Source: Kocuria rosea (lineage in GTDB: Bacteria > Actinomycetota > Actinomycetes > Actinomycetales > Micrococcaceae). Taken from it: a stretch of 64,000 nucleotides of DNA. The notes beneath the pieces were generated by a model. It saw only the letters and a program-made list of their open reading frames with translations, did not search any database and had not been told where the DNA came from. Positions 26,140-42,984 of the stretch are shown in pieces. Numbering within the stretch: position 1 is the first letter of the stretch; each line of letters opens with the position of its first letter. The stretch lies in contig NZ_JAMBOG010000003.1 of assembly GCF_023715525.1 (NCBI RefSeq), positions 1 through 64,000 on the forward strand, written 5' to 3'. A program made the position numbers and the translations under genes.

Positions 26140-27345
26140 TCAGAGAGCGGTGAGGACGTCGAGGGAGGTCCGCAGCCCCTCCTCCTCCCGGACCGCGCGT
26201 CCCAGGCGCCCCGCGCGGTCCCCGCGGGCGAGCGCCTGGCCGAGGGCGGGGACCAGCGTGTCCACCGCCAGCTTCCGGTAGGGGACCGGGGCCGCGGCGA
26301 TCCCGAGCCGGTGGAGCTGCCGGCCCCAGAACGGCTGGTCGGCGAGAAAGGGCACCACCACGGACGGCACACCGGCGCGGGCCACCGCGTGCACGGTTCC
26401 GGCCCCGCCGTGGTGGACCGCCACGGCGGCGCCCGGGAGCAGGGCCCCCAGCGGCGCGGACGGCACGACCAGCACGTCGTCGCCGCCGCTGTCCTCCGGC
26501 AGGGCCAGCCCGCCCCACCCCGTGAGCAGTAGGGCCCGCAGACCGTGGGCGCGCGCGCTCTCGACGACCGCCCTCCCCCGCGCGTGCGCGTCCCCGGCCG
26601 ACATGGAGCCGAAGGTCGCCACCAGGTACGGTCCGCCGCGCACGAACCTTGCCGCGGCGGGGTCCACCGGTGCGTCCGCGCCCGCCGCGTGCCAGGCGCC
26701 GGTCAGGTGCACCTTGGCCGGCCAGTCGGCAGGCCTGGGCAGCAGCTGCGGGCTGACCCCCATCAGCGTGGCCCGGGACCTCGAGGAGGGCGACGGCGCC
26801 CGGCCGCCGGGCAGCTGCCGGCACGCGTGCTCCACGCCGGCGCGGAACAGCACGGTGCCGCTGCGGGGGACCGCGTAGGTCGCCCGGTTGAACCGGCCGA
26901 GGTCCGAGGCGACCGTGGGCCCGCCGGGTGCGGAGAACTCCCGTGTGGGCGTCGCCACGGGGACGAACTCGGCCAGCACGCGGGGGACGCCGAGGGAGTC
27001 CGCCACGGCCGGTGCGGTGAGGACCAGCGGGTGGTGCAGCACCACGTCCGGGTCGAACGCCAGCGTCTCCCGCACCGCGGCGGAGAACATCTCGCGCATC
27101 CCGGGACCGACCTCGGAGCGGAAGTGGCGCACCGCCGTCCGCGGCGAGCGCCCGGGCACGCGCATCAGCCGGTGGAAGTCCACGCCGAGGCCCACGGTGT
27201 CGAGCCCGGCGAGGTCCACGCCGGAGTTCTCCGGCAGGCCCAGCCGGACCCGGTGGCCCCGGGCGGTGGCGTACCGGGCCAGGGCCGCGAACGGCTCCAC
27301 GTCGCCGCGGGTTCCGGAGGTCAGCAGCATCAGGCGCACCCCCAC
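26140..27345 (-). CDS. Family-1-type glycosyltransferase (CrtX / MGT-like)
   Basis: 401 aa, GT-B fold. N-terminal acceptor domain beginning LMLLTSGTRGDVEPFAALA, and C-terminal nucleotide-sugar domain with VATFGSMS, VVPSAPLGALLPGAAVAVHHGGAGT (the HHGGAGT donor-binding motif), PSVVVPFLADQPFWG. Relatives put glucose on zeaxanthin (CrtX), macrolides or sterols. Its position, divergent from a carotenoid-elongase/desaturase pair, suggests glycosylation of a hydroxylated carotenoid. Start is uncertain: GTG 27345, GTG 27339 or ATG 27330, none with a clear ribosome site. Confidence 0.82.
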   Translation of the reverse strand: MGVRLMLLTSGTRGDVEPFAALARYATARGHRVRLGLPENSGVDLAGLDTVGLGVDFHRLMRVPGRSPRTAVRHFRSEVGPGMREMFSAAVRETLAFDPDVVLHHPLVLTAPAVADSLGVPRVLAEFVPVATPTREFSAPGGPTVASDLGRFNRATYAVPRSGTVLFRAGVEHACRQLPGGRAPSPSSRSRATLMGVSPQLLPRPADWPAKVHLTGAWHAAGADAPVDPAAARFVRGGPYLVATFGSMSAGDAHARGRAVVESARAHGLRALLLTGWGGLALPEDSGGDDVLVVPSAPLGALLPGAAVAVHHGGAGTVHAVARAGVPSVVVPFLADQPFWGRQLHRLGIAAAPVPYRKLAVDTLVPALGQALARGDRAGRLGRAVREEEGLRTSLDVLTAL

Positions 27346-27488
27346 AGTCTGCCCGTGGCGGGACGCAGCACGGAAGGACCGGCGGCTGGCGCCCGGGCCG
27401 GGCTCCGTCGCGCCGCTGCCCGAACCGACGTAGTGTGGGGCGCACCCGGGCTCCCCGGGTCACCTGTCGCCCGAGGAGGACCACCGCT

Positions 27489-28355
27489 GTGCCCCAGGCA
27501 GGACCCGCCCCCGCGCTCCGGAGGATCCTCCACATCTCCCGGCCGGTGCTCTGGATCAACGCCCTGGGCACGGGTGTGGTGGGCATGTGGCTCGCGGGGG
27601 CGCTCTGGCGGTGGGAGGCGCTGCCGCTCCTGCTGTGGCTCACCCTCCCGTTCAACCTGCTGATCTACGGCGTCAACGACGTCTTCGACCAGGACACCGA
27701 CGCCCTCAACCCGCGCAAGGGCTCGCTGGAGGGCGCGCGGATCAGGTCTACCGAGGTGCGCACGATCCGGGCCTGGGTGCTCGTCACCAATGTGCCGTTC
27801 CTCGCCTGGTTCGCCGTCTCCCTTCCAGCGGCAGCGCTGGGCTGGATCGCGCTGTACGTCCTGGTCTTCGTGTTCTACTCGGCCCCGCCCGTGCGCCTCA
27901 AGGCCCGGGCCTTCCTCGACTCGCTGAGCAACGCCGCCTATGCGTTCCCCCTGGTCTTCGTGGCCTACGCGCTGGGAGAGACCCCGGTGTGGCCCGCGGC
28001 GCTGGGCCTGATGGCCTGGAGCGTCGCCAAGCACGCGTTCGACGCCGTCCAGGACATCGAGGAGGACCGCGCCGCGGCCATCACGACGACGGCCGTCCGG
28101 CTGGGCCCGGGCGGCGTCGCACGGTGGAGCGGTGCCTGGTGGGGCGTCTCCACGCTGTGCTTCGCGCTGGTCAGCATCCCGGTGGCCCTGGTGAACGCGC
28201 TCATCGCCGGGTGGCTCGTCGTCTGCCTGGGGCGGGACCCGACGCCGGACACCGGGCACCGGCTGTACAGGCACTCCATCGCCTTCCCCTACGTCGCCGG
28301 CGCCGTGGCCGGGGTGCAGCTGACGCTCGCGCTGTACTTCGGGCTGTACCCGTGA
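27489..28355 (+). CDS. UbiA-family prenyltransferase, lycopene-elongase-like (second copy)
   Basis: 288 aa, an integral membrane protein with about eight hydrophobic segments. First aspartate-rich motif NDVFDQDTD (63-71) and a second one DAVQDIEED (near 190) bind the Mg-diphosphate of the prenyl donor. It is plainly paralogous to the UbiA half of the 29788-30996 fusion: both read FP/PFNLL-YG-NDVFD-...-LNPRKG. Such enzymes add dimethylallyl units to lycopene (CrtEb, LyeJ), giving C45/C50 carotenoids. GTG at 27489 follows GAGGAGGA; TAGTGT (27432-27437) is a likely -10. Overlaps the next gene by 4 bp. Confidence 0.85.
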   Translation: MPQAGPAPALRRILHISRPVLWINALGTGVVGMWLAGALWRWEALPLLLWLTLPFNLLIYGVNDVFDQDTDALNPRKGSLEGARIRSTEVRTIRAWVLVTNVPFLAWFAVSLPAAALGWIALYVLVFVFYSAPPVRLKARAFLDSLSNAAYAFPLVFVAYALGETPVWPAALGLMAWSVAKHAFDAVQDIEEDRAAAITTTAVRLGPGGVARWSGAWWGVSTLCFALVSIPVALVNALIAGWLVVCLGRDPTPDTGHRLYRHSIAFPYVAGAVAGVQLTLALYFGLYP

Positions 28356-29791
28356 GCCGCGTCGTCGTCGTGGGCGGGGGCATCGGCGGGCTGACGGCGG
28401 CCGCCCTGCTCGGTCACGCCGGCCACGGCGTGACCCTGCTCGAGGCCGCCGACCACCTCGGCGGCAAGAGCCGCCGCCTGGAGGACGCCGGGCAGCGCAT
28501 GGACACCGGGCCGTCGCTGTTCACGTTCCCGGGCGTGTGGGAGGAGTTCCTCCGCCGCCTGGACGGGCTGCGCGCGGCGGGCACGCCCGGCCCCGCGCCG
28601 CGTGCGCCGAGCGCCGAGGAGACCGCGGGGCTCGTGCTGGAGCGCCTCCCGGGCGTCGGCACGTACTACTACCGCGGCACCCGGTGCGAACTGCCCGTTC
28701 CGCCGGGGCATCCCTGGCACGCGGCCTGGGTCCGCTTCGAGGCCGAGCACGGCGGGCTGGGTCCCGACGTCACGCGGCTCCTGACCGCCGGGCCGCTGGA
28801 GAGGCGGTCCCACTCCGCGCTGGCGAAGCTGGGGCGGCTGTACGGGCGGCGGCTGACGACCCGCAGCTACCTCGACAGCCTCACCTGGATGCCGGACGGC
28901 CTGCGCGAGGTCATCGCCATCCACACCCTCAACGCCGGCGTCGGCCCTGCGCGCACTCCGGCCCTCTACGCGAGCATGCCCGCCGTCATGGCCCGCGACG
29001 GCGTCTGGGTCCCCAGGGGCGGGGTGTACGAGCTCGTCGAGGCCCTGCAGCGGCTGGCGGTGGGCGCCGGGGTCGAGATCCGCACCGGCGAACCGGCCAC
29101 CGCCATCGCCCGCCGCCGCGTGGTCACGGACCGGGGCACCTACCCGGCCGACGCCGTCGTCAGCGGGCTCGACGCCCACCGCCTCGACGGCCTGCTCGCG
29201 GGACGGGCTCCCCGGCGGCCGCGCAGGCTCAGCTGCTCGGCGATCGCGATCTACGCCGTGCTGCGCTCCGAGCTGCCCGCCGGGACGCCCCGGCACGGCG
29301 TCGTCCTGCCCGACCGTCCCGCCGAGCTCTACGCCGGCCTCGAAGCCGGCACCGAGCCCGCGCAGACCATGGCCTTCGCGAACTACTACCCGGCCCACGG
29401 GGTCTACCCGAACAGCGCCCCCACGCTCGCCCTGCTGCTGACCGCACCGGCCAACGGGAGGTCGTACGACCTCGAGGACCCGTTCGTCGCGCGCGAGCTC
29501 GAGCGCGTGGCGCAGGTCCTCGGGCTGCCGGGCCCCGTCACGGACCGGTTCCGCAGCGCGAGGATCCTGGATCCGGCCTACTTCGCCGCGCACGGGTCGG
29601 AGGGCGGGGCCCTGTACGGCGCGGTGCGTCCGTCGTGGCGCAGCGGCCCGCTCCACGCGCCGTCCCACACGAGCCTGCGCCGGCCGTGGCTGTGGCGGGT
29701 GGGGGCCTCCGTCCATCCGGGCGGCGGCCTGCCCGCGGTGCTGGGCGGCGCCATGATCTCCACGGACAAGCTGATCAAGCACCTGCGCTAG
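28352..29791 (+). CDS. CrtI/CrtD-type carotenoid desaturase (FAD-dependent)
   Basis: 479 aa. FAD-binding GGGIGGLTAAALLGHAG and LEAADHLGGKSRR at the N-terminus, then GPSLFTFPGVWEEF, TPALYASMPAVMARDGVWVPRGGVYELVEAL in the middle and SVHPGGGLPAVLGGAMIS near the C-terminus, as in carotenoid desaturases and related isomerases. It is shorter and more divergent than the CrtI half of the 31346-33832 fusion, so a later step (3,4-desaturation of a hydroxylated end group, as CrtD does) is more likely than phytoene desaturation. GTGA overlap with the UbiA gene shows co-expression. Its stop overlaps that of the converging fusion gene in CTAG. Confidence 0.83.
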   Translation: MSRVVVVGGGIGGLTAAALLGHAGHGVTLLEAADHLGGKSRRLEDAGQRMDTGPSLFTFPGVWEEFLRRLDGLRAAGTPGPAPRAPSAEETAGLVLERLPGVGTYYYRGTRCELPVPPGHPWHAAWVRFEAEHGGLGPDVTRLLTAGPLERRSHSALAKLGRLYGRRLTTRSYLDSLTWMPDGLREVIAIHTLNAGVGPARTPALYASMPAVMARDGVWVPRGGVYELVEALQRLAVGAGVEIRTGEPATAIARRRVVTDRGTYPADAVVSGLDAHRLDGLLAGRAPRRPRRLSCSAIAIYAVLRSELPAGTPRHGVVLPDRPAELYAGLEAGTEPAQTMAFANYYPAHGVYPNSAPTLALLLTAPANGRSYDLEDPFVARELERVAQVLGLPGPVTDRFRSARILDPAYFAAHGSEGGALYGAVRPSWRSGPLHAPSHTSLRRPWLWRVGASVHPGGGLPAVLGGAMISTDKLIKHLR

Positions 29792-30996
29792 GGCCCGGGG
29801 GCGGCACCGCCCGATCCGTGCTCGAGGATCCAGGCCCAGTTCAGCAGCAGCGTCACGAGAGCGCCGGTCACGTAGTTCAGCCACAGGAACCGCCTCCACC
29901 CCCGGTGGGCGCGCTCGCAGTCGGCGTCCGTGACGGACAGGTACGGCACGAGGTTGGCCAGGTAGGGCAGCACCAGGAGGGACGCCACCGGCCCGGGCCA
30001 GGGGACGAACAGCAGGAGCAGCCCGGCGGCGAGGTAGAACGCCGCGGCGGCCCACACCGTGGGGCGGGCGCCCAGGACCGTGGCGATCGACCCCAGTCCG
30101 GCCTCCCGGTCCGCCCTGACGTCCTGGACGGCGCCGAACGCCTGGGAGGCCATGGACCACAGGAAGAACCCGGCGCACAGGGCGACGGTGCCCGCCGAGC
30201 CGTCCGCCCCGGCGAGCACGAGGCCGTAGACGGCCGGGGACACGAAGTGCGTGGCGGAGGTCGCCGAGTCCAGGAACGGGACCTCCTTGAACCGCAGGCC
30301 CTTGAGGCTGTAGGCCGCCACCGCGAAGAGGCTGACCACGAGCACCCACGCCGCGGCGGCCCCGCCGACCGGGAACAGGAACGCCAGGAACGGCAGGGCG
30401 AGCAGCACGGAGCCCACGAGGATCATCCGGTGCTCGGAACGGTCCACGAGCGCGCCCTCGGCCCCGCCCTTGCGGGGGTTGAGGAGGTCGGACTCGTGGT
30501 CGAAGACGTCGTTGATCCCGTACATCAGGAGGTTGTAGGGGAAGAGGAAGAACAGGGTCCCGACGACGAGGGGCAGGTCCAGCCGGCCGGTCGTCATGAC
30601 GTAGGCCGCCGCGAACGGGAAGGCGGTGTTGACCCAGGAGACGGGCCGGGACGTGGCCACGAGCGTGCGCACCGTGGCGGCGAGCCGTCCGCGCTCGGCC
30701 AGCCCCCACCACAGCGAGGGCAGCAGGAGCAGCCCCGCGAGCGGGTAGGCGAAGTCCTCGACCGGCACGAGGCCGACCCGCAGCCCCGTGATGTGCCCGG
30801 CCCCGTAGTCGAAGAACCCGGCGGCGATCATGAGGTTGTCGAACACCGCCGTCAGCACGGCGAGCACCGCGAAGGAGAGGCCGAGCACGGCCAGGGCCCG
30901 GCGCCGCGGGGGCGCCGGGGAAGGCTCACGGACCAGCAGGGTGGCCGGTGCCAGGGCGAGCGCGAGGAACACCGGGATGATGAGCGCGTAGGTCAC
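29788..30996 (-). CDS. CrtYf-CrtEb fusion: C50 cyclase subunit joined to lycopene elongase
   Basis: 402 aa. Residues 1-102 are a lycopene-cyclase-domain subunit (CrtYf type) with three membrane segments, FDNLMIAAGFFDYG and the PVEDFAY motif (78-84). Residues about 105-402 are a UbiA-type prenyltransferase with NDVFDHESD (162-170) and a second motif FGAVQDVRAD. In Corynebacterium these are two proteins, a heterodimeric-cyclase subunit and CrtEb, encoded by separate genes. Here there is no stop between them. GTG at 30996 follows GGGAGGTG and overlaps the crtYe stop. Predicted role: elongation of lycopene and epsilon/gamma-type cyclisation of the C50 product. Confidence 0.88.
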   Translation of the reverse strand: MTYALIIPVFLALALAPATLLVREPSPAPPRRRALAVLGLSFAVLAVLTAVFDNLMIAAGFFDYGAGHITGLRVGLVPVEDFAYPLAGLLLLPSLWWGLAERGRLAATVRTLVATSRPVSWVNTAFPFAAAYVMTTGRLDLPLVVGTLFFLFPYNLLMYGINDVFDHESDLLNPRKGGAEGALVDRSEHRMILVGSVLLALPFLAFLFPVGGAAAAWVLVVSLFAVAAYSLKGLRFKEVPFLDSATSATHFVSPAVYGLVLAGADGSAGTVALCAGFFLWSMASQAFGAVQDVRADREAGLGSIATVLGARPTVWAAAAFYLAAGLLLLFVPWPGPVASLLVLPYLANLVPYLSVTDADCERAHRGWRRFLWLNYVTGALVTLLLNWAWILEHGSGGAAPGP

Positions 30997-31349
30997 GGGG
31001 CGTCCACCTCCCGGCGGGGGGGACCGGCCGCGGCGGAACGCCGCGCCAGCACCTTCTCGGTCAGCCGGACCAGGTTCATGGTGAGGTAGCACAGGAACGC
31101 CAGGAACACGACCTCCTCGACCGGTATCTGCGGGGCGAGCATCCAGCCGGTCGCGTAGCTGCTCCGGCTGTGCAGGAAGATCCCCAGGCTGATCCCGGCG
31201 AGGTCCCAGGCGAGGAAGAACGCCACCCCCGCGAGGAGCACGAGGGACGCCCGGCGGGGGTCGTGGGCGAAGAACAGCTTCTCCCGCACGTCCAGGAGCA
31301 CCATCCCGGCCAGGCTGAGCAGGAGGAAGCCGAGGTACGCGAAGCTCAT
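30993..31349 (-). CDS. crtYe: C50 carotenoid cyclase subunit CrtYe
   Basis: 118 aa, three membrane helices, lycopene cyclase domain. It has the paired motifs WDLAGISLGIF and PVEEVVFLAFLCYLTMNLV (PVEE at 76-79), matching CrtYe/CrtYg subunits, which work with CrtYf/CrtYh as a heterodimer. Here the partner is the N-terminal part of the adjacent fusion protein. ATG at 31349 overlaps the crtBI stop (ATGA) and its own stop overlaps the next start, so the four biosynthetic genes are translated in a chain. Confidence 0.87.
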   Translation of the reverse strand: MSFAYLGFLLLSLAGMVLLDVREKLFFAHDPRRASLVLLAGVAFFLAWDLAGISLGIFLHSRSSYATGWMLAPQIPVEEVVFLAFLCYLTMNLVRLTEKVLARRSAAAGPPRREVDAP

Positions 31350-33832
31350 CCGCGCGGCACCGGTGGTTCCGCCAGGGGCCCGGTGGAGGTGTCCCCGCGC
31401 AGGTCCTTGAGCAGGATCTCCGCGCTGATCAGGCACATGGGGAGGCCGATCCCGGGGATGGTCGAGGCACCGCAGTAGTGCAGGCCGGCGACCTTCCGGC
31501 TGCGGTTGGACCCGCGGAAGAACGCGGACTGCCTCAGGACGTGGGCGGGGCCGAGCACGTTGCCGCGCCAGGCGTTGAAGTCGCGACGGAAGTCCTCGGG
31601 CCCCACGGTGTGGCGCACGACGATCCGCTCCCGCAGGTCCGGCACGCCCGCCCACGACGCCACCTGGTCGATCACCCGGTCCGCGACGGCCTCGACGGCC
31701 GGGGAGCCGGTGCCGTCGGGCCCGCCTGCGCCCAGCGACGGATCGGCGGGGACGGGGATCAGGACGAACAGGTTCTCGTGCCCGTCCGGGGCCACACTGG
31801 GGTCGGTGGCCGAGGGCTTGCACACGTAGACGGACGCGGGGTCCGGGACGCTCGTGGGCTCCTCGAAGATCGCCCGGAAGTTCGTGTCCCAGTCCTCGCT
31901 GAAGAACAGGGTGTGGTGCGGGAGCCGGGGCAGCTCACCGCGCACCCCGAGCATCACGAGCACCGCGCCCGGGCCGGACTGCCGCTTGTCCCAGTACCGC
32001 TGCGGATAGCTCTGCAGCTCGCGCGGGAGCAGCGCCGTCTCGGTGTGGTGCAGGTCCGCGGCCGAGACCACGACGTCCGCGGCGAGCTCGTGCTCCGCCC
32101 CGTCCGCGTCCCGCCACACGACACCGGTGGCCCGGACCGGGCCGTCGGGGGCCGGGGAGGTGCGGATCCGCACGACGTCGGCCTCCGTCCGGATCCGCGC
32201 GCCGTGGGAGAGGGCGAGCCGTTCGACGGACTCGACGACCCGGCGGAACCCGCCGCGCGGGTACTGCACGGAGTCGGCGAGGTCCATGTGGCTCATGAGG
32301 TGGTAGAGCGAGGGCGTCATCCGGGGCGCACTGGCCAGGAAGACGGCCGGATAGCCGAGCACCTGCCGCAGCCGGGTGTCCTGGACCGTCGCGGCGGCGA
32401 GATCGTGCAGGGACCCGGTGAGGTGGCGGGCGAGCTCCGGCAGCCGCCGCAGGACCGCCCGGGTGAGCAGCGGGGCGAACGAGGCGTAGGACGTGTAGAG
32501 GAAGTGGTCCACGGCGAGGTCGTAGGTCCGCTGCGCCGAGGCGAGGTACGTGCGGATCCGGGCGCCGGCGCCCGGCTCCACGGCCTCGAACTGCGCGACC
32601 GTGTGCTCGAGGTCGGAGCGGACGTCGAGCGGCTCGGCGTAGTTCTCGCCGTACACCCGGTAGGCCGGGTCGAGCCGGACGAGGTCGAGCTCGTGGGCGG
32701 CGCTGGAGCCCATGAGGCGGAAGAAGTGGTCGAAGACCTCCGGCATGAGGTACCAGGAGGGCCCGGTGTCGAAGCGGAAGCCGTCCCGCTCGAGCCGCCC
32801 GGCGCGCCCACCCGTCGTCGTCCCGCGCTCCAGGACGGTGACGTCCCAGCCGTCCTTCGCGAGCAGGCCCGCGGCGGCCAGGCCGCCGATCCCGGCGCCG
32901 ACCACCACGGCGCGCCGGCCCGCGGGCCCGGGGGCCCGGCGACGGGCGCGCGCCTTCGCGACGGCCGCCGCGGCGAGCGCGGCCTTGCGGGGGTTGGGGA
33001 CGCGGATGCGGGAGCTCAGCAGCTCCCGGGCGGGGGTGGCTCGGATGCGCACGGACAGCTCCCGGAACAGGTCGTGGGCGGCGAGGACGGCCGCGCGGGA
33101 GGAGGAGGGCAGGCCGCCGATCACCGCGCGGGCGGCGGAGAGGTCGGCGTCGATGTCGTCGAGGAGGCGGTTCTTCTCGGTCTCGGAGAACTGCCCGGGC
33201 TCCACGCCGGGGAAGTACACGCGGCCGAGCTCGCCGTAGTCCTCGGCGAGGTCGCGCAGGAAGTTGACCTTCTGGAACGCCGCGCCCAGGCGGCGCGCCC
33301 CGGCCTCGAGCTCCGCCCGCCGGGCGTCGGGGACGCTGCGCCCGGCCAGGAATACCTGCAGGCACATCAGCCCCACGACCTCGGCGGAGCCGTAGACGTA
33401 CTCGTCGAGGGAGTCGGCGCTGTGCCGGTCCTCGCTGAGGTCGGCCCGCATCGACGCGAAGAACGGCCGGACGAGGTCCTCGCCGATCCCGGCGTGGCGG
33501 GCGGTGCGGGCGAAGGCGTGCACCACGAGGTTGCTGCTGAACCCGCGCCCGATCGCGGCGAAGGTCTCGGCCTCGAGGGAGTCCAGCAGCTCACGGGATC
33601 CGTCCGGGGAGATCCCGGCACCGGCGCTGGCGCCGTCGACGATCTCGTCGGCGATCCGCACGAGGGCGTAGACGGCATAGACGTGGGCGCGGATCTCCGG
33701 GCCCAGCAGCCGGCAGGCGAGGCCGAAGGAGGTGGAGTAGCGGCGGATGACGGTCGCGGCGGCCTGCCGGGCGGCGTCGTCGTAGCGGGCGGCGGCCTCG
33801 GCCGGGGACCCTGCGTGCTGGGCCGCGGTCAC
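31346..33832 (-). CDS. CrtB-CrtI fusion: phytoene synthase joined to phytoene desaturase
   Basis: 828 aa in one open frame. Residues 1-290 are a squalene/phytoene synthase with both aspartate motifs: DEIVD (62-66) and NFLRDLAED (190-198). An Ala/Arg-rich linker (about 290-306, KARARRR) leads into a complete CrtI desaturase (307-828): FAD loop VVVGAGIGG (309-317), FDTGPSWYLMP, and the C-terminal GLHYCGASTIPGIGLPMCLISAE. It would turn two GGPP into phytoene and desaturate that to lycopene. CrtB and CrtI are separate in the relatives I know; no stop or frameshift is visible at the joint. GTG at 33832 overlaps the crtE stop. Confidence 0.9.
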   Translation of the reverse strand: MTAAQHAGSPAEAAARYDDAARQAAATVIRRYSTSFGLACRLLGPEIRAHVYAVYALVRIADEIVDGASAGAGISPDGSRELLDSLEAETFAAIGRGFSSNLVVHAFARTARHAGIGEDLVRPFFASMRADLSEDRHSADSLDEYVYGSAEVVGLMCLQVFLAGRSVPDARRAELEAGARRLGAAFQKVNFLRDLAEDYGELGRVYFPGVEPGQFSETEKNRLLDDIDADLSAARAVIGGLPSSSRAAVLAAHDLFRELSVRIRATPARELLSSRIRVPNPRKAALAAAAVAKARARRRAPGPAGRRAVVVGAGIGGLAAAGLLAKDGWDVTVLERGTTTGGRAGRLERDGFRFDTGPSWYLMPEVFDHFFRLMGSSAAHELDLVRLDPAYRVYGENYAEPLDVRSDLEHTVAQFEAVEPGAGARIRTYLASAQRTYDLAVDHFLYTSYASFAPLLTRAVLRRLPELARHLTGSLHDLAAATVQDTRLRQVLGYPAVFLASAPRMTPSLYHLMSHMDLADSVQYPRGGFRRVVESVERLALSHGARIRTEADVVRIRTSPAPDGPVRATGVVWRDADGAEHELAADVVVSAADLHHTETALLPRELQSYPQRYWDKRQSGPGAVLVMLGVRGELPRLPHHTLFFSEDWDTNFRAIFEEPTSVPDPASVYVCKPSATDPSVAPDGHENLFVLIPVPADPSLGAGGPDGTGSPAVEAVADRVIDQVASWAGVPDLRERIVVRHTVGPEDFRRDFNAWRGNVLGPAHVLRQSAFFRGSNRSRKVAGLHYCGASTIPGIGLPMCLISAEILLKDLRGDTSTGPLAEPPVPRG

Positions 33833-34947
33833 CGGATGCGCTCCGTGGCCCCGCCCACGATGCGGCGCAGGTCCCGTTCGAGGGCCTCGGGCAGCACCGC
33901 GCCGTCGAGCAGGGCCCGGGCCTCGGCCGCGCACTCGGCGACCATGTCCTCGACCTCCTGGCGCGCCCCGCACTGCTCCAGGAGGTCCCGGGCGCGCAGG
34001 GCCTGCTCCCCGCTGATCTCGTGGCGGCCCAGGATCGCGTCGAGCTCCTCGCCCGCGGACGTCCGCTGCGCCGCGGCGACGAGCATGGTGCGCTTGCCCT
34101 CCCGCAGGTCGCTGACCACGGACTTGCCCGTGGTTTCCGGGTCCCCGAAGACCCCGAGCAGGTCGTCCACCAGCTGGTAGGCGGTGCCCACGGTGCGGCC
34201 CAGCCGCCCGAGCACCTCGACGTCCCCGTCCGGGGCCCCGCCGAGCACCCCGCCGGCCTGCAGGGGGGTCTCGAAGGAGTAGACCGCGGTCTTCAGGCAC
34301 GTGGCCGCGAGCACCTGCTCGCGGCCGGGCCGAGCCCCGGGCAGCGTGTGGTCGACGTCGAGCAGCTCCCCCGCGGCGGAGGAGAAGAGGGCCGCGTCGA
34401 GCAGGTCGAGGAGGCGGGGCAGCCGGTCGGGGGACAGCCCCGAACGGGCCACGAGCCGGTAGGCGCCGGCCAGGGCGAGGTCCCCGGCGATGACGCCCAC
34501 GCTCGCGCCGTACTGGCGCGCCTGGTCGCGCCCGGAGCCCGCCGCGGACGCACGGGAGGCCGCGGCGGCGTTGATGGTGGGCTGGTGGCGGCGCTGGTCG
34601 TCCTGGTCGATGACGTCGTCGTGGACGATGAGGGCGGTGTGCAGCAGCTCGAACGCGGCTCCCACGGCCTCGACCACGCGCTCCGGCTCCGGCTCGGGAT
34701 AGGCGCCGGCCACGAGGCGGACGAGCTGGGGCCGGATGCGCTTGCCGCCGGAGCTGAGCCGGGCGACCTCCCCCCACAGCCGCCCGAACCCGGGGTCCAC
34801 CGCCTCGGCGCGGCCGGTGGCCTCCGCGAGGAACTCGTCCAGCACGGGGACCTCGGCGGAGCCCTTTCCACCGTCCCTCCCGGCACGTGTCCCGGTGCCC
34901 GGACGGGCGCTGGAGAATGCCGAATCGCGCGAGAAGACCGTCACCAT
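33829..34947 (-). CDS. crtE: Geranylgeranyl diphosphate synthase
   Basis: 372 aa, trans-prenyltransferase of the IdsA/CrtE type. First aspartate-rich motif HDDVIDQDD (109-117) and second DDLLGVFGD (261-269), plus GGKRIRPQLV (67-76), bind allylic diphosphate, Mg and IPP. It makes C20 GGPP for carotenoids. The first 35 residues are a low-complexity extension. ATG at 34947 lies 6 nt after TGGAAT (34954-34959, minus), so it may have its own leaderless start in addition to read-through from the MarR gene 46 bp upstream. First gene of the crtE-crtBI-crtYe-crtYf/Eb chain. Confidence 0.9.
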   Translation of the reverse strand: MVTVFSRDSAFSSARPGTGTRAGRDGGKGSAEVPVLDEFLAEATGRAEAVDPGFGRLWGEVARLSSGGKRIRPQLVRLVAGAYPEPEPERVVEAVGAAFELLHTALIVHDDVIDQDDQRRHQPTINAAAASRASAAGSGRDQARQYGASVGVIAGDLALAGAYRLVARSGLSPDRLPRLLDLLDAALFSSAAGELLDVDHTLPGARPGREQVLAATCLKTAVYSFETPLQAGGVLGGAPDGDVEVLGRLGRTVGTAYQLVDDLLGVFGDPETTGKSVVSDLREGKRTMLVAAAQRTSAGEELDAILGRHEISGEQALRARDLLEQCGARQEVEDMVAECAAEARALLDGAVLPEALERDLRRIVGGATERIR

Positions 34948-34993: not shown

Positions 34994-35584
34994 TCACGCC
35001 GCGCTCGGAGCCGGTCCGGCCTCCGCCCGGGCCCCCTCCTCCGGCGATGTGTCCTCGGCCGCCCTCCGGCCCGCCCGGCGGACGGCCTCCGTGAGCTGGG
35101 GCAGACGCCGCCGCAGGACCTCGACCTCCTCGTCCGTGCAGTCGTCGAGCACGGCCAGGACCTCTTCGGTCATGGCCGAGAACATCCGACGGCCGGAGCG
35201 GTAGGCGTGCTCGGTGGCCCGGAGGCTGATCTCCCGCCGGTCGTGCGGATCGACCGCCCGCACCAGGTGGCCCGCGGCGACGAGGCGCTTGATGACCGTC
35301 GTGGTCGCCGAACCGCTCAGCACGAGCCGGCGGGCGATGTCCCCGGCGCGGACCGGCCGGCCCTCCCGGTTGGCCTGCATGACCTCGTTGAGCGCGTGGA
35401 CGTCCTTGTGCGCCAGGCCGAAGCGGCGCCGGACCTGGTCCGCGTAGCGCTCGGCCTCGGTGCTGAAGAGCTGGAGCAGGAAGAGGACGTCGAAGCCCCT
35501 CCGCCCCCGGTGCGCGCTTGCCTCCGCACCCCTGTCCGGCACCGCGGCGCCGGGCGTGCTGATCGTGCCCTCGTCGGCCTGCAT
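34994..35584 (-). CDS. MarR family regulator, CrtR-like
   Basis: 196 aa. The winged-helix domain (about 45-135) shows VRAGDIARRLVLSGSATTTVIKRLVAAGHLVRAVDPHDRREISLRAT with the usual DRR wing. The N-terminal 25 and C-terminal 20 residues are low-complexity. In Corynebacterium a MarR protein (CrtR) next to crtE represses the carotenoid operon and is relieved by GGPP; this one sits directly upstream of crtE on the same strand, so the same job is likely. ATG at 35584 lies 6 nt after a TAGAAT box (35591-35596), with no ribosome site: leaderless. Confidence 0.87.
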   Translation of the reverse strand: MQADEGTISTPGAAVPDRGAEASAHRGRRGFDVLFLLQLFSTEAERYADQVRRRFGLAHKDVHALNEVMQANREGRPVRAGDIARRLVLSGSATTTVIKRLVAAGHLVRAVDPHDRREISLRATEHAYRSGRRMFSAMTEEVLAVLDDCTDEEVEVLRRRLPQLTEAVRRAGRRAAEDTSPEEGARAEAGPAPSAA

Positions 35585-37036: not shown

Positions 37037-38671
37037 TCAGCCGGCGGAGGCGACCGTCCACCACTGCGCGGGCAGGGCGCCGGGGATCCAGCGGGCCTCC
37101 TGGCCGGAGGAGCGCACGATCCAGCCGGTCTCGAACTCCTGGAAGCACGGGCTGCCGCCGAGGGCGCACAGCTCGCGGGAGACCGGCTTGCCGGTGCTGG
37201 CGCCGATCCGGCCGTGGAGTCGGCCGATGACGTCGCGGGTGGTGAACGGATCGCCGCCCTGCGCCGCGATCACGGCCGAGACCGGGTCCACGATGCCCGC
37301 GCCGCAGCCGGGCGCGCAGCCGCCGGGGGCCTGGCGGGCCGTGGTGGTCAGCGCCGCGCGGACGCCGTTCGCGTCCAGGCCCGGCGCGGCCTGGCGGACC
37401 AGCGCCACGGCGCCGGCCACGGCCGGCGCCGCCATGGACGTGCCGTTGCCGTCTGTGTACGAGGCCGCCCCCGGCTCCTTGGCCCCGTCGTTGCCCGTGG
37501 AGTGGATGCCTGCCCACGGGTCGCCGCCGGGGGCCGCGACCGTCACCGAGCCGAAGTTGGAGTAGGAGGCCAGGGCGCCGGAGACGTCCGTGGCAGCGAC
37601 CGAGATCACCCCGGCGCAGTTGGCCGGCGCGGACCGGGCGGCGTCGACGGCGTTGTTGCCGGCGGCCACGACCACGGAGACCCCCCGGCCGACGGCCTCG
37701 TCGATGGCCGACTGGAGCACCGGCGGGCACTGCCCCACGACGCCGAGGCTGAGGTTGATGACGGTGGCGGGCGTCGGGTTGGCGGGCGCGCCGGGCACCG
37801 CGGCGCCGGCGGCCCAGGCCACGCCCGCGGCGACGTCGGAGATGTAGCCCTGGCTGCAGGCGCCCACGACGCGCACCGGGAGGATCTTCGCCGCGGGGGC
37901 GACCCCGGAGATGCCGATCCCGTTGCCGCCCTCGGCCGCCGCGATGCCCGCGGTCTGCGTGCCGTGCCAGGTCGAGGTCGCCGGCATGGGGCTGTTCGGG
38001 CACAGCACCGCGTCGGGGTGGTCGCCCGCGTCCGTGGGGTCGGCGTCCCACCCGTTCCCGTCGCGGCCGTTCGGGGCCGCGGAGACGAAGTCGTAGCCGG
38101 GCAGGACGTTGGCGTCCAGGTCGGGGTGGGCGGTGATGCCCGTGTCCACGATCGCGATGGTCTGCCCGGCGCCGGTGGCCCGGTCCCACGCCAGGGGCAT
38201 GCCGAGGCCGGCGGGGTCGTCCCACAGGCTCCACTGCCGGGCGCGGTACGAGGGGTCGTCGGGCTCGGCGGCCGTGGTGGCCAGGAGGTCCGGCTCGGCG
38301 TACTCGACGGCGGGGTCCTGCTCGAGGGCGGTGGTCAGCGCCTCGAGGTCCGCGCCCGCCAGCTTCTCCTCGGTCCGCAGGACGGTGGCCCCGCCGGCGG
38401 TGGGCGCGGCCTCCGCGAGCTGCGCCCCGGCCGTGCTGGAGCGTGCGGCGGCCTGGCCGTACACCGCCCCCGGGGAGCCGCCCGGGGCCGCCCCGTCCCG
38501 GAACTTCACGACGACGCGGTCCGTGGCCGCGCTCCCGGCGGACGCGGCGGCGGTCTCGGGGGCGGGGGCCGGGGCGGTCTGCCCGGGGTCCGCCCCCGCG
38601 ACGGCGAGCGGGGCGAGCGCGAGGGCCGCCGCGAGGGCGAGGGCCGCGGCGGTGCTGCGGGTGGACGTCAA
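37037..38671 (-). CDS. Secreted subtilisin-like serine protease (S8) with inhibitor propeptide
   Basis: 544 aa. A Sec-type signal (about 1-25: STRSTAAALALAAALALAPLAVAGA), a propeptide (about 45-130, VVVKFRDG..QDPAVEYAEPDL) and the S8 catalytic domain: AIVDTGITAHPD (Asp), STWHGTQTAGI (His), GNGTSMAAPAVAGAVAL (Ser). The last 60 residues (GRLHGRIGASTGKP.., FETGWIVRSSG..ARWIPGAL) resemble a single LGFP-type wall-binding repeat. It is an extracellular, possibly wall-bound, protease. I chose the TTG at 38671: GGAGGAACCC precedes it and the signal begins there; the upstream frame is proline-rich with no signal. Confidence 0.88.
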   Translation of the reverse strand: MTSTRSTAAALALAAALALAPLAVAGADPGQTAPAPAPETAAASAGSAATDRVVVKFRDGAAPGGSPGAVYGQAAARSSTAGAQLAEAAPTAGGATVLRTEEKLAGADLEALTTALEQDPAVEYAEPDLLATTAAEPDDPSYRARQWSLWDDPAGLGMPLAWDRATGAGQTIAIVDTGITAHPDLDANVLPGYDFVSAAPNGRDGNGWDADPTDAGDHPDAVLCPNSPMPATSTWHGTQTAGIAAAEGGNGIGISGVAPAAKILPVRVVGACSQGYISDVAAGVAWAAGAAVPGAPANPTPATVINLSLGVVGQCPPVLQSAIDEAVGRGVSVVVAAGNNAVDAARSAPANCAGVISVAATDVSGALASYSNFGSVTVAAPGGDPWAGIHSTGNDGAKEPGAASYTDGNGTSMAAPAVAGAVALVRQAAPGLDANGVRAALTTTARQAPGGCAPGCGAGIVDPVSAVIAAQGGDPFTTRDVIGRLHGRIGASTGKPVSRELCALGGSPCFQEFETGWIVRSSGQEARWIPGALPAQWWTVASAG

Positions 38672-38809
38672 GGGTTCCTCCGGCCGGTCGGGCGGGAGCG
38701 AGCAGTGCAGCACGCGGTCCTGCCCCCCGGGGACCGGAGGGCGGGCCGGTCCCCTGCGCGCAGGCCCGGAAGCGCCTGCAGGAAAGGAGCCCCCACTCCT
38801 GTGCACTGC

Positions 38810-40495: not shown

Positions 40496-40572
40496 GCCGC
40501 GCCGGGCCCGTGCCGCGGCGCGGCGCGGGCCCGGCGTGGCTTTCACGCCCGCGGAGCCGGATACTGGGTGGG

Positions 40573-41748
40573 ATGACCCCCGCACTCCTGTCCCTCGGCA
40601 CGGCGGTCCCCCCGCACGTCCTCGAGCAGACCGCGGCCCGGGACCTGTACCTGGGCCAGCCCGGCACGGACCGGCTCACCGAGCGCCTCGTCCGCACCGT
40701 GTTCGGGGCCTCGGGGGTGGGCCGCCGGCACACCGTGCTGCGCGAGCTGGTCGACGACGGCGCCCGCACGGCCTCCCCCTACATCGGCCCGGGCGGGCAG
40801 ATCCTCAACCCGCTCACGGGCGTCCGCAACCGCACCTACGTGAGCGAGGCCCCCCGCCTCTTCGCGGCCGCCGCCCGCGACGCCCTCGCCGGCTGCCCCG
40901 GGCTCGACCCGGCGGGGATCACCGACGTGATCACCGTCTCCTGCACCGGCTTCTTCGCCCCCGGCCCCGACTACCAGCTCGTGCGGGACCTGGGCCTGAA
41001 CCCGGCCACCCGCCGGTCCCACATCGGGTTCATGGGCTGCCACGGAGCGCTCATCGGGCTGCGCCAGGCCCGCGCGATCGCGCAGGCGGACCCGGAGGCC
41101 GTCGTGCTGCTGGTCGCGGCCGAGCTGTGCAGCCTGCACCTGCGCCCGGCCCGGGACGCCGACGCCATCCGCGGGGCCGCCCTCTTCGCCGACGGCGCCG
41201 CGGCCGCCGTCGTCAGCTCGCGGCGGCCCGGCGGCGCGGAGCCGCTGCTCGGGCTCGACCGCTTCAGCACCCTCGTGATCCCCGACGGCGAGCACGACAT
41301 GGCCTGGACCATCGGTGACGAGGGCTTCGAGATGGTCCTCGGCGCGGCCGTGCCGAAGGTCATCGAGGGCAACATCCACACGGCCGTCGACGCGCTCCTC
41401 GGGGGGCCCGGGGGCGCGGTGCCCCGAGGAGCGATCACCGACTGGGCCGTCCACCCCGGCGGGCGCAGCATCCTGGACAAGCTCGAGAACGCCCTCGGCC
41501 TGTCCCCGGAGGCGCTGCGGGAGTCGCGCGACGTGCTCGCCGCCCGTGGCAACATGAGCAGCGTGACCGTCCTGCACGTGCTGCGCCAGGTGATCGACGC
41601 CGCCCCCGCCGACGAGCCGCGGACGGTGTGCGCGCTCGCGTTCGGGCCGGGCCTGACCGTGGAGTCGGCGCTGTTCAGCATCCCGGTCCGGGCCGCCGGA
41701 GCGCCCGGACCGCGGCTCGAGCCGGCCGCAGCCCCCCTGTCCCGCTAG
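40573..41748 (+). CDS. Type III polyketide synthase (chalcone/stilbene synthase family)
   Basis: 391 aa. The catalytic triad is complete: C156 in GFMGCHGAL, H294 in WAVHPGGRSIL and N327 in GNMSSVTVL. It condenses malonyl-CoA with an acyl-CoA starter to an alkylpyrone or resorcinol; bacterial relatives give germicidin, naphthalenetetrol or lipid quinones. It has no acyl carrier protein partner, as expected. The next gene, a FAD-dependent oxidoreductase 9 bp downstream, probably modifies the product. ATG at 40573 is 7 nt after GATACT with no ribosome site: probably leaderless. Confidence 0.9.
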   Translation: MTPALLSLGTAVPPHVLEQTAARDLYLGQPGTDRLTERLVRTVFGASGVGRRHTVLRELVDDGARTASPYIGPGGQILNPLTGVRNRTYVSEAPRLFAAAARDALAGCPGLDPAGITDVITVSCTGFFAPGPDYQLVRDLGLNPATRRSHIGFMGCHGALIGLRQARAIAQADPEAVVLLVAAELCSLHLRPARDADAIRGAALFADGAAAAVVSSRRPGGAEPLLGLDRFSTLVIPDGEHDMAWTIGDEGFEMVLGAAVPKVIEGNIHTAVDALLGGPGGAVPRGAITDWAVHPGGRSILDKLENALGLSPEALRESRDVLAARGNMSSVTVLHVLRQVIDAAPADEPRTVCALAFGPGLTVESALFSIPVRAAGAPGPRLEPAAAPLSR

Positions 41749-41757
41749 GAGGATCCC

Positions 41758-42984
41758 GTGGACCACGACGTCGTGATCGTCGGCGCCGGCCTCGCCGGCC
41801 TGCAGTGCGCCCGGCTGCTCGAGCAGCACGGCCTGGACGTGGTGGTGCTGGAGGCCTCCGACGGCGTCGGGGGCCGGGTGCGCACCGACGTGGTCGACGG
41901 CTTCCGCTGCGACCGCGGCTTCCAGGTGCTCAACCCCGCCTACACGGAGCTGCGCCGCAGCGTGGACGTCCCCGCCCTGGGGCTGCAGAAGTTCGACGCC
42001 GCGGCCGGCGTCCGCCGCGGCGACGGGATCGACGTCCTGGCCGACCCGCGGCGCGTGCCCTCCCGCCTGGCCGGGACCCTGGGCAGCCCGCTCGTGGAGC
42101 TGCGCCGGCTGCCCGCCCTGCTGGCGTGGCTGGCGCCCGTGCTCGACCCCCGTGCGGCGCACCGGGAGGAGCTGGACCGCCCGTGGCACGAGTCCCTCGA
42201 CGCCGCGGGGGTGCGCGGGCCGCTGCGGGACCTCGTGCTCGAGCCGTTCCTGGCGGGCGTGATCCTCGAGGACGGGGGCCGGACCTCCGCGGCGTTCGTG
42301 CGGCAGCTGGTCGGCTGGTTCCTGCTCGGCACGCCCGGCCTGCCGGCCGGGGGCATGGGGGCGCTGCCCGAGTGGATCCACGACGGCCTGCGCGCCCGCG
42401 CCGTCCTGGGCGCCCGCGTCGAGACCCTCGAGCGCACCGCCTCCGGCTGGACGGTCGGCGCCGGCGGCGGCTCGTGGCGGGCCCCGTCGGTGGTCGTGGC
42501 CACGGACGGCCCCGCGGCCGGCGGGCTGCTGGACCTGCCGGCCGTGCCGATGAAGGGCGAGGCCACGTGGTGGTTCGCCCCGGACCGGGCGCCGTCGGAC
42601 CTGAGGTCGCTGGTGCTGCCGGGCGAGACCACGGGACCGCTCATCGACACGGCCGTGGTCAGCAACGCCGCCCCCAGCTACGCCCCCGCGGGCCGTGCAC
42701 TGGTCCAGGCGTCCGCCCTGCTCCCGCGCGGAGCCGCACTGCCCGCCGAGGCCGACGTCCGCCGCCAGCTGTCCGGGATCTGGGGCGCGGACGCGGGCGC
42801 CTGGGAGCTGCTGACGGTGCACGAGGTCCGTGACGCCCTGCCCGAGCAGCTGCCCCCGTTCGTGGCGGAGCGCCCCGCCGCCCTCGGCGACGGCGTGTTC
42901 GTGTGCGGGGACCACCGCACCACCGGCTCCAGCCAGGGAGCGCTGCGCTCCGGGCGGCGGGCCGCGGAGGCGCTGCTCGCCTGA
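41758..42984 (+). CDS. FAD-dependent amine-oxidase-type oxidoreductase
   Basis: 408 aa. FAD-binding GAGLAGLQCARLLEQHGLDV and LEASDGVGGRVRTD at the N-terminus, and FVCGDHRTTGSSQGALRSGRRAAEAL at the C-terminus as in flavin-containing amine oxidases and phytoene-desaturase relatives. GTG at 41758 (GGAGGATCCC before it) is 9 bp after the type III PKS gene, and this pair recurs in actinobacterial type III PKS loci from memory. It likely oxidises or desaturates the polyketide or its lipid chain. Confidence 0.85.
   Translation: MDHDVVIVGAGLAGLQCARLLEQHGLDVVVLEASDGVGGRVRTDVVDGFRCDRGFQVLNPAYTELRRSVDVPALGLQKFDAAAGVRRGDGIDVLADPRRVPSRLAGTLGSPLVELRRLPALLAWLAPVLDPRAAHREELDRPWHESLDAAGVRGPLRDLVLEPFLAGVILEDGGRTSAAFVRQLVGWFLLGTPGLPAGGMGALPEWIHDGLRARAVLGARVETLERTASGWTVGAGGGSWRAPSVVVATDGPAAGGLLDLPAVPMKGEATWWFAPDRAPSDLRSLVLPGETTGPLIDTAVVSNAAPSYAPAGRALVQASALLPRGAALPAEADVRRQLSGIWGADAGAWELLTVHEVRDALPEQLPPFVAERPAALGDGVFVCGDHRTTGSSQGALRSGRRAAEALLA

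Follow-up and report, generated by a model that had tools for sequence, protein, structure and literature searches.

Phytoene synthase (CrtB) and phytoene desaturase (CrtI) are two separate proteins in Corynebacterium glutamicum. The question raised by a 64,000-nucleotide stretch of Kocuria rosea (contig NZ_JAMBOG010000003.1, positions 1 to 64,000, hereafter the window) is whether its crtBI gene encodes both in a single chain and, if so, how such a fusion arose and what it would be good for. The analysis leads us to conclude that crtBI very probably encodes a bifunctional protein, effectively a lycopene synthase in one chain that was born within Kocuria, for which tethering of the two activities would be the likeliest benefit.

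The crtBI gene and its conservation

The first-pass annotation had described an in-frame CrtB-CrtI fusion of 828 amino acids whose halves keep their catalytic motifs, and on both counts it was borne out. A single frame runs from a GTG at 33832 to a TGA ending at 31346, comprising 828 codons with zero internal stops, and both domains are complete (Table 1). Domain searches on the protein returned SQS_PSY at residues 29–281, a Pfam match above the family cut-off that covers positions 1–262 of the 263 in the profile, and Pfam Amino_oxidase at residues 315–804, while the NCBIfam match to TIGR02734 (crtI_fam) spans profile positions 1–500 of 504. The two DxxxD motifs of phytoene synthases are present as DEIVD (62–66) and, within NFLRDLAED, as DLAED (194–198), and their aspartates are invariant in alignment A1, which comprises 8 fused proteins of the Kocuria, Clavibacter and Rathayibacter type. 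The CrtI half carries the GxGxxG motif of the flavin adenine dinucleotide (FAD) Rossmann fold as GAGIGG (312–317) and the C-terminal motif CGASTIPGIG (787–796). In agreement, the top Foldseek matches of the CrtI fold are 4rep, a gamma-carotene desaturase (TM-score on the target, TMt, 0.88), and 4dgk, the CrtI of Pantoea (TMt 0.72), and by sequence the solved chains matching the CrtB half are those of CrtM, dehydrosqualene synthase and phytoene synthase; among 25 sequences or the best 60 of 82 matches, no solved chain had its best stretch across both halves.

As had also been described, the gene overlaps its neighbours at both ends, its start with the crtE stop (GTGA) and its stop with the crtYe start (ATGA). 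The crtBI frame is open upstream as well, reaching 1205 amino acids in all, the opposite strand holds an open reading frame of 900 amino acids, and another frame within crtBI contains only 2 stops. Since the DNA is GC-rich and other frames are open too, the open frame alone is weak evidence for crtBI, and the stronger evidence is its conservation across genomes of the genus.

Surveying the architecture in relatives, an advised check, gave a clear division: crtBI is fused in 8 of 27 Kocuria genomes, whereas crtB and crtI are separate and in different frames in 18, the remaining genome (G011) being without a match. Seven of the fused copies are nearly full length, and those of the 6 genomes other than that of the window are 86–91% identical to it over nearly their full length; the eighth (G015) ends at a contig edge and is continuous over residues 152–828. 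That sequencing or assembly error removed a stop between two genes, which a draft genome of 73 contigs might suggest, is practically eliminated by the continuous frame in 7 further Kocuria genomes (one of them contig-cut), including one that is a single contig (G014), and the gene is thus no assembly artefact, as had been judged at first from its overlapping ends. Three named Kocuria records are also fused, but they are not independent, because K. dechangensis and isolate 2-558A have the same CrtI as G005 and G021, and the third matches the cut copy. The genus itself was recognised as Kocuria through loci L012 and L015, whose CrtI sequences equal those of named K. dechangensis and K. subflava records.

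The genome of the window, searched for SQS_PSY at E values up to 0.001, gave crtBI as its sole match, and PF00494 searches of 7 fused and 2 unfused Kocuria genomes returned one SQS_PSY match each (9/9). As no other match turned up there, the 7 fused genomes have no phytoene synthase candidate besides crtBI.

Origin and probable recurrence of the fusion

The junctions of sister Kocuria with separate genes indicate how the fusion may have come about. In four of the five read (K. subflava, G004, G019 and G020) the crtB TGA overlaps the crtI ATG in an ATGA, and in the fifth (G017) the crtB stop lies 3 bases ahead of the crtI ATG. The basic C-terminal tail of K. subflava CrtB reads GRATGRRLQA, and the crtI ATG of this species is preceded by AAGGAGA; in the fused clade a similar basic tail continues directly into the CrtI Rossmann strand, and an ATG in the linker is absent from 8/8 fused Kocuria. 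The linker thus looks like the old CrtB tail and not like new sequence. It is basic and rich in Ala and Arg, without stop or shift, as the first-pass annotation had reported, and the frame is open across it in all 8 fused genomes. The fusion would have arisen within Kocuria when two overlapping genes, probably translationally coupled in the ancestor, became one frame through loss of the crtB stop and the crtI ATG.

Fusions of this pair also occur elsewhere. From at least 537 relatives we kept a set of 80 named loci, in which 12 are fused, namely 3 of Kocuria (one contig-cut), 5 of Clavibacter, 3 of Rathayibacter and 1 of an unclassified Microbacteriaceae; 67 have separate crtB and crtI, three of these in the same frame with a stop between, and L066, cut by a contig start, stands outside this count. 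The Microbacteriaceae draw matched in 156 of 199 genomes and holds at least 6 fusions, in two genera matching Clavibacter and Rathayibacter, and among the matches listed every judgeable copy of these two genera is fused. Matches were obtained in 33 of 47 genomes of family f11, and 3 of these carry the fusion, all of genus g42 (G503, G588 and G368). A draw over the order (182/297 genomes matched) shows the genome of the window, G503 and G368 as fused among the matches listed, and in a further draw (218/295 matched) stop-free fusion was seen, again among the matches listed, only in the genus of the window (g1); fusions that match only weakly or in pieces could escape these draws of 295, 297 and 199 genomes. 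In a phylum draw of 246 genomes, 17 matched at 1e-80 and only the window's own match spans both halves, a result in which a diverged CrtB half could go unseen because most other matches show CrtI alone. Plasmid records matched in 207 cases, all below 60% identity, and the 15 listed matches each fall in two pieces.

We rejected as fusions L043, L048, L051, L117–L119 and L171–L174, where the two genes are in frame with a stop between and are therefore separate; this check covered the loci other than G115 and G232. In L117–L119, L171–L174 and L043 crtB and crtI are mostly one stop apart, and these loci may represent half-way states.

Whether the fused copies share one origin was analysed with CrtI and CrtB trees built from 100 of 119 loci (left out were 6 lacking crtB or crtI and 13 that were incomplete or duplicated) and with a concatenated tree of 75 hand-picked rows, 17 of them fused, from which the linker was removed; all were quick trees without bootstraps, and the groups had been fixed by architecture ahead of each tree. 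The fused groups are not united in a single clade. A single clade of all 18 fused rows is rejected by the approximately unbiased (AU) test in the CrtI tree (p 1.4e-11) and in the CrtB tree (p 0.014), and so is one of all 17 fused rows, g42 included, in the concatenated tree (p 8e-35). The Kocuria crtBI does not group with the Clavibacter and Rathayibacter fusions, trees that hold them together being rejected, nor does it group with those of g42 (AU p 3e-4, concatenated). Clavibacter and Rathayibacter as one clade were not rejected in three tests (p 0.55, 0.80 and 0.69), and the number of fusions is therefore three or four: the CrtI and CrtB trees need 3 changes each for three fused groups, and the concatenated tree 4 for four.

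Leaving aside splits of an old fusion, these trees point to crtBI having fused separately three or four times. One early fusion followed by many splits would be compatible with the change counts, but the likely crtI start retained in Clavibacter and the CrtB-tail linker of Kocuria favour gains. The Clavibacter linker is longer than that of Kocuria, and the g42 fusions, although they too have CrtB then CrtI in one frame, differ by a longer Pro/Ala-rich linker. Two Clavibacter loci have an ATG in the linker (residue 339 in L039, 351 in L047) with 5 of 6 AGGAGG positions matched upstream, from which a free CrtI might be made.

A probable single bifunctional chain and its alternatives

Judged from the families, the protein would combine phytoene synthesis with desaturation. 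The N-terminal CrtB domain would condense two molecules of geranylgeranyl diphosphate (GGPP), supplied by CrtE, to phytoene; desaturation of phytoene to lycopene would fall to the C-terminal CrtI domain, which depends on FAD, and lycopene would then be elongated and cyclised to C50 carotenoids by CrtYe and CrtYf-CrtEb. The most likely benefit would be a fixed 1:1 dosage with both enzymes tethered at one membrane patch, so that insoluble phytoene would be made beside the desaturase without a rigid tunnel.

An AlphaFold2 model (60-row alignment) has both domains well formed, with a mean predicted local distance difference test (pLDDT) score of 90.3 and a predicted template modelling score (pTM) of 0.67, a value that leaves the placement of the two domains unsure. 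The linker is modelled as a helix at residues 280–296, after which pLDDT falls below 50 at 298–304, and the domains are probably joined flexibly. Linkers are longer in Clavibacter and in g42, L046 has one of roughly the short Kocuria length, and among the 8 fused Kocuria the length shifts by 1–2 codons while the frame stays open; as lengths differ between lineages, no fixed spacing is kept. A linker that is variable and in part of low confidence fits tethering better than a fixed tunnel, and we regard tethering as the inferred benefit. The median ratio of nonsynonymous to synonymous substitution rates (dN/dS) among the 8 fused Kocuria is 0.18 in the CrtB part (last 131 codons), 0.21 in the CrtI part and about 0.30 in the linker, where it rests on only 26 aligned columns; by these ratios, the fused gene is under purifying selection.

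Three observations weigh against a bifunctional chain held together to advantage. The CrtB part falls below the NCBIfam equivalog cut-off for CrtB (NF042419, 56.7 against 480 bits), and consequently phytoene as the product of this half is inferred from family and context. The dN of the linker is about three times that of the domains, so that its exact sequence seems unimportant. Finally, a GTG stands at the first CrtI strand (VVxGAG) in 8/8 fused Kocuria, with 3–5 of 6 AGGAGG positions matched upstream, and a slightly shortened free CrtI could start there.

Neutral compaction of the operon, in which chance joined the frames of overlapping genes and the product was tolerated without benefit, is a possibility that we hold to be on the doubtful side. 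It would sit well with the 4-bp overlaps at three junctions of the same operon and with its older second fusion, crtYf-crtEb (see below), and also with the several lineages in which a stop separates crtB from a crtI in the same frame; it accounts less readily for three or more fused groups, each kept in all sampled members of its clade, and for the finding of a single SQS_PSY domain in each of the 7 fused genomes searched.

The first-pass annotation had proposed that the fusion channels phytoene between the active sites. Phytoene is water-insoluble, and at least three groups not united in one clade carry the same pair joined in this order, as might be expected if the fusion had evolved for true channeling, with active sites facing each other and phytoene bypassing the bulk membrane. 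However, the linker probably stems from the ancestral CrtB tail, linkers vary in length and sequence between lineages, and neither the low-confidence residues 298–304 nor the pTM of 0.67 speak for a fixed arrangement; moreover, the unfused relatives examined already have crtB next to crtI in this order, and repeated fusion could thus be mere opportunity. We consider true channeling unlikely. The broader claim, that Actinobacteria fused phytoene synthase to desaturase at least three times because proximity was selected, is tentative and somewhat improbable; if true, fused and unfused sister Kocuria would constitute a natural experiment on bacterial phytoene channeling.

It is quite improbable that the gene still yields two proteins, whether through an internal translation start at the GTG close to residue 308 or through cleavage of the flexible linker. 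Besides that conserved GTG and the low model confidence of the linker, the ATG with a 5 of 6 AGGAGG match kept in both Clavibacter copies scanned speaks for two products; yet in GC-rich DNA Val is often encoded by GTG, AGGAGG matches of this kind are weak (3 of 6 in the window copy), the fused Kocuria have no ATG in the linker, and a start at the GTG would omit the short stretch ahead of this strand in the sisters' CrtI.

The carotenoid operon and known systems

The single-chain enzyme would act within a complete C50 operon, in which crtE, crtB, crtI, crtYe, crtYf and crtEb make six parts in four genes and at each of the three junctions between crtE and crtYf-crtEb start and stop overlap by 4 bp.

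Table 1. Features of crtBI and its operon in the window
Feature	Coordinates	Strand	Basis
crtBI, single gene, 828-aa CrtB-CrtI fusion, GTG start	31346..33832	minus	one open frame, Pfam and NCBIfam domains, in 8 of 27 Kocuria genomes (one contig-cut)
Phytoene synthase domain (SQS_PSY, residues 29–281)	32990..33748	minus	140.6 bits, cut-off 26
First Asp-rich motif DEIVD (residues 62–66)	33635..33649	minus	invariant in the 8 fused A1 proteins
Second Asp-rich motif NFLRDLAED (residues 190–198)	33239..33265	minus	residues 190–195 and D198 invariant in the 8 fused A1 proteins
Linker (residues 282–306), basic, Ala/Arg-rich	32915..32989	minus	matches the end of CrtB in Kocuria with separate genes
CrtI phytoene desaturase domain (residues 308–823)	31364..32911	minus	TIGR02734 crtI_fam 557.7 bits, cut-off 238.1; Foldseek
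crtE, polyprenyl (GGPP) synthase	33829..34947	minus	PF00348 163 bits; GTGA overlap with crtBI
crtYe, C50 carotenoid cyclase subunit	30993..31349	minus	TIGR03462 54.9 bits, cut-off 39.4; ATGA overlap with crtBI
crtYf-crtEb, second fusion, cyclase subunit and UbiA-type lycopene elongase, 402 aa	29788..30996	minus	TIGR03462 at 2–96, PRK13105 prenyltransferase at 104–389, UbiA
MarR-family gene, candidate CrtR-like regulator	34994..35584	minus	MarR_2 39.9 bits; adjoins crtE in five Kocuria loci examined

The second fusion, crtYf-crtEb, is spanned by one match in 12 of 27 Kocuria genomes, and its stop-free joint frame was confirmed in the window and 5 loci, one of them unfused for crtBI. Since five of the genomes that have it keep separate crtB and crtI (G004, G017, G019, G020 and G022), it is older than crtBI. 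On the plus strand, a second UbiA-type elongase (27435-28355) and a CrtI/CrtD-like desaturase (28352-29791) overlap by 4 bases and converge on crtYf-crtEb; they possibly serve a bacterioruberin-type pigment. Similar second elongases occur in G003, G009, G014, G015, G021 and G023 and in neither G005 nor G006, a distribution by which this pair does not track the crtBI fusion. Beside the second elongase lies a glycosyltransferase with an EryCIII-like C-terminal domain (26140-27345, minus), which could decorate the carotenoid. Farther away are a subtilase-family protease with a C-terminal LGFP repeat (37037-38806, minus) and a type III polyketide synthase of the chalcone/stilbene synthase family (40510-41748, plus), followed by a flavin amine oxidase-like gene (41758-42984, plus).

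LitBC is a fusion of the CrtYf-CrtEb type, joining cyclase subunit and elongase. It resembles the neighbour crtYf-crtEb and not crtBI; the name LitBC appears in a figure legend of PMC2889829. The C50 operon of C. glutamicum (PMC3598387) has the same pathway and gene order as the window. The MarR-family gene, directly upstream of crtE on the same strand, is a candidate regulator by analogy with the CrtR papers, although CrtR of C. glutamicum is divergent (PMC5401885).

The first-pass annotation had contrasted the fusion with separate genes in C. glutamicum and Micrococcus, which overstates its novelty: a crtBI, bifunctional phytoene synthase/oxidoreductase, was named in 2017 in the Rathayibacter toxicus genome paper (PMC5552033), so that the architecture of the Kocuria gene was already known. 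As in the window, the Rathayibacter and Clavibacter crtBI places CrtB ahead of CrtI in a single chain and lies between crtE and crtYe, and the window protein is 59–62% identical to the five Clavibacter, Rathayibacter and related fusions of A1, a comparison made with Rathayibacter copies other than R. toxicus itself. In titles and abstract openings among the matches listed, a body of text that leaves most subscription literature outside, we found no naming of a Kocuria crtBI. The Kocuria fusion is a new member of a known architecture and probably evolved separately. Synthase and desaturase also share one chain in the thraustochytrid CrtIBY, needed for pigment in A. limacinum (PMC10016063); this eukaryotic protein has the order CrtI-CrtB-CrtY with a cyclase domain, whereas the window chain is B-I and has none.

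A 2026 survey reports Kuril-Kamchatka Kocuria isolates without crtB although their pigment is deep red (PMC13028206). If crtB were joined to crtI there and the whole annotated simply as crtI, this may explain the missing gene in those other isolates, and recognition of crtBI may thereby correct an annotation error behind the crtB-less Kocuria. More generally, crtBI would be a natural single-chain enzyme leading from GGPP to lycopene that has close unfused sisters, which makes tethering or channeling of phytoene testable.

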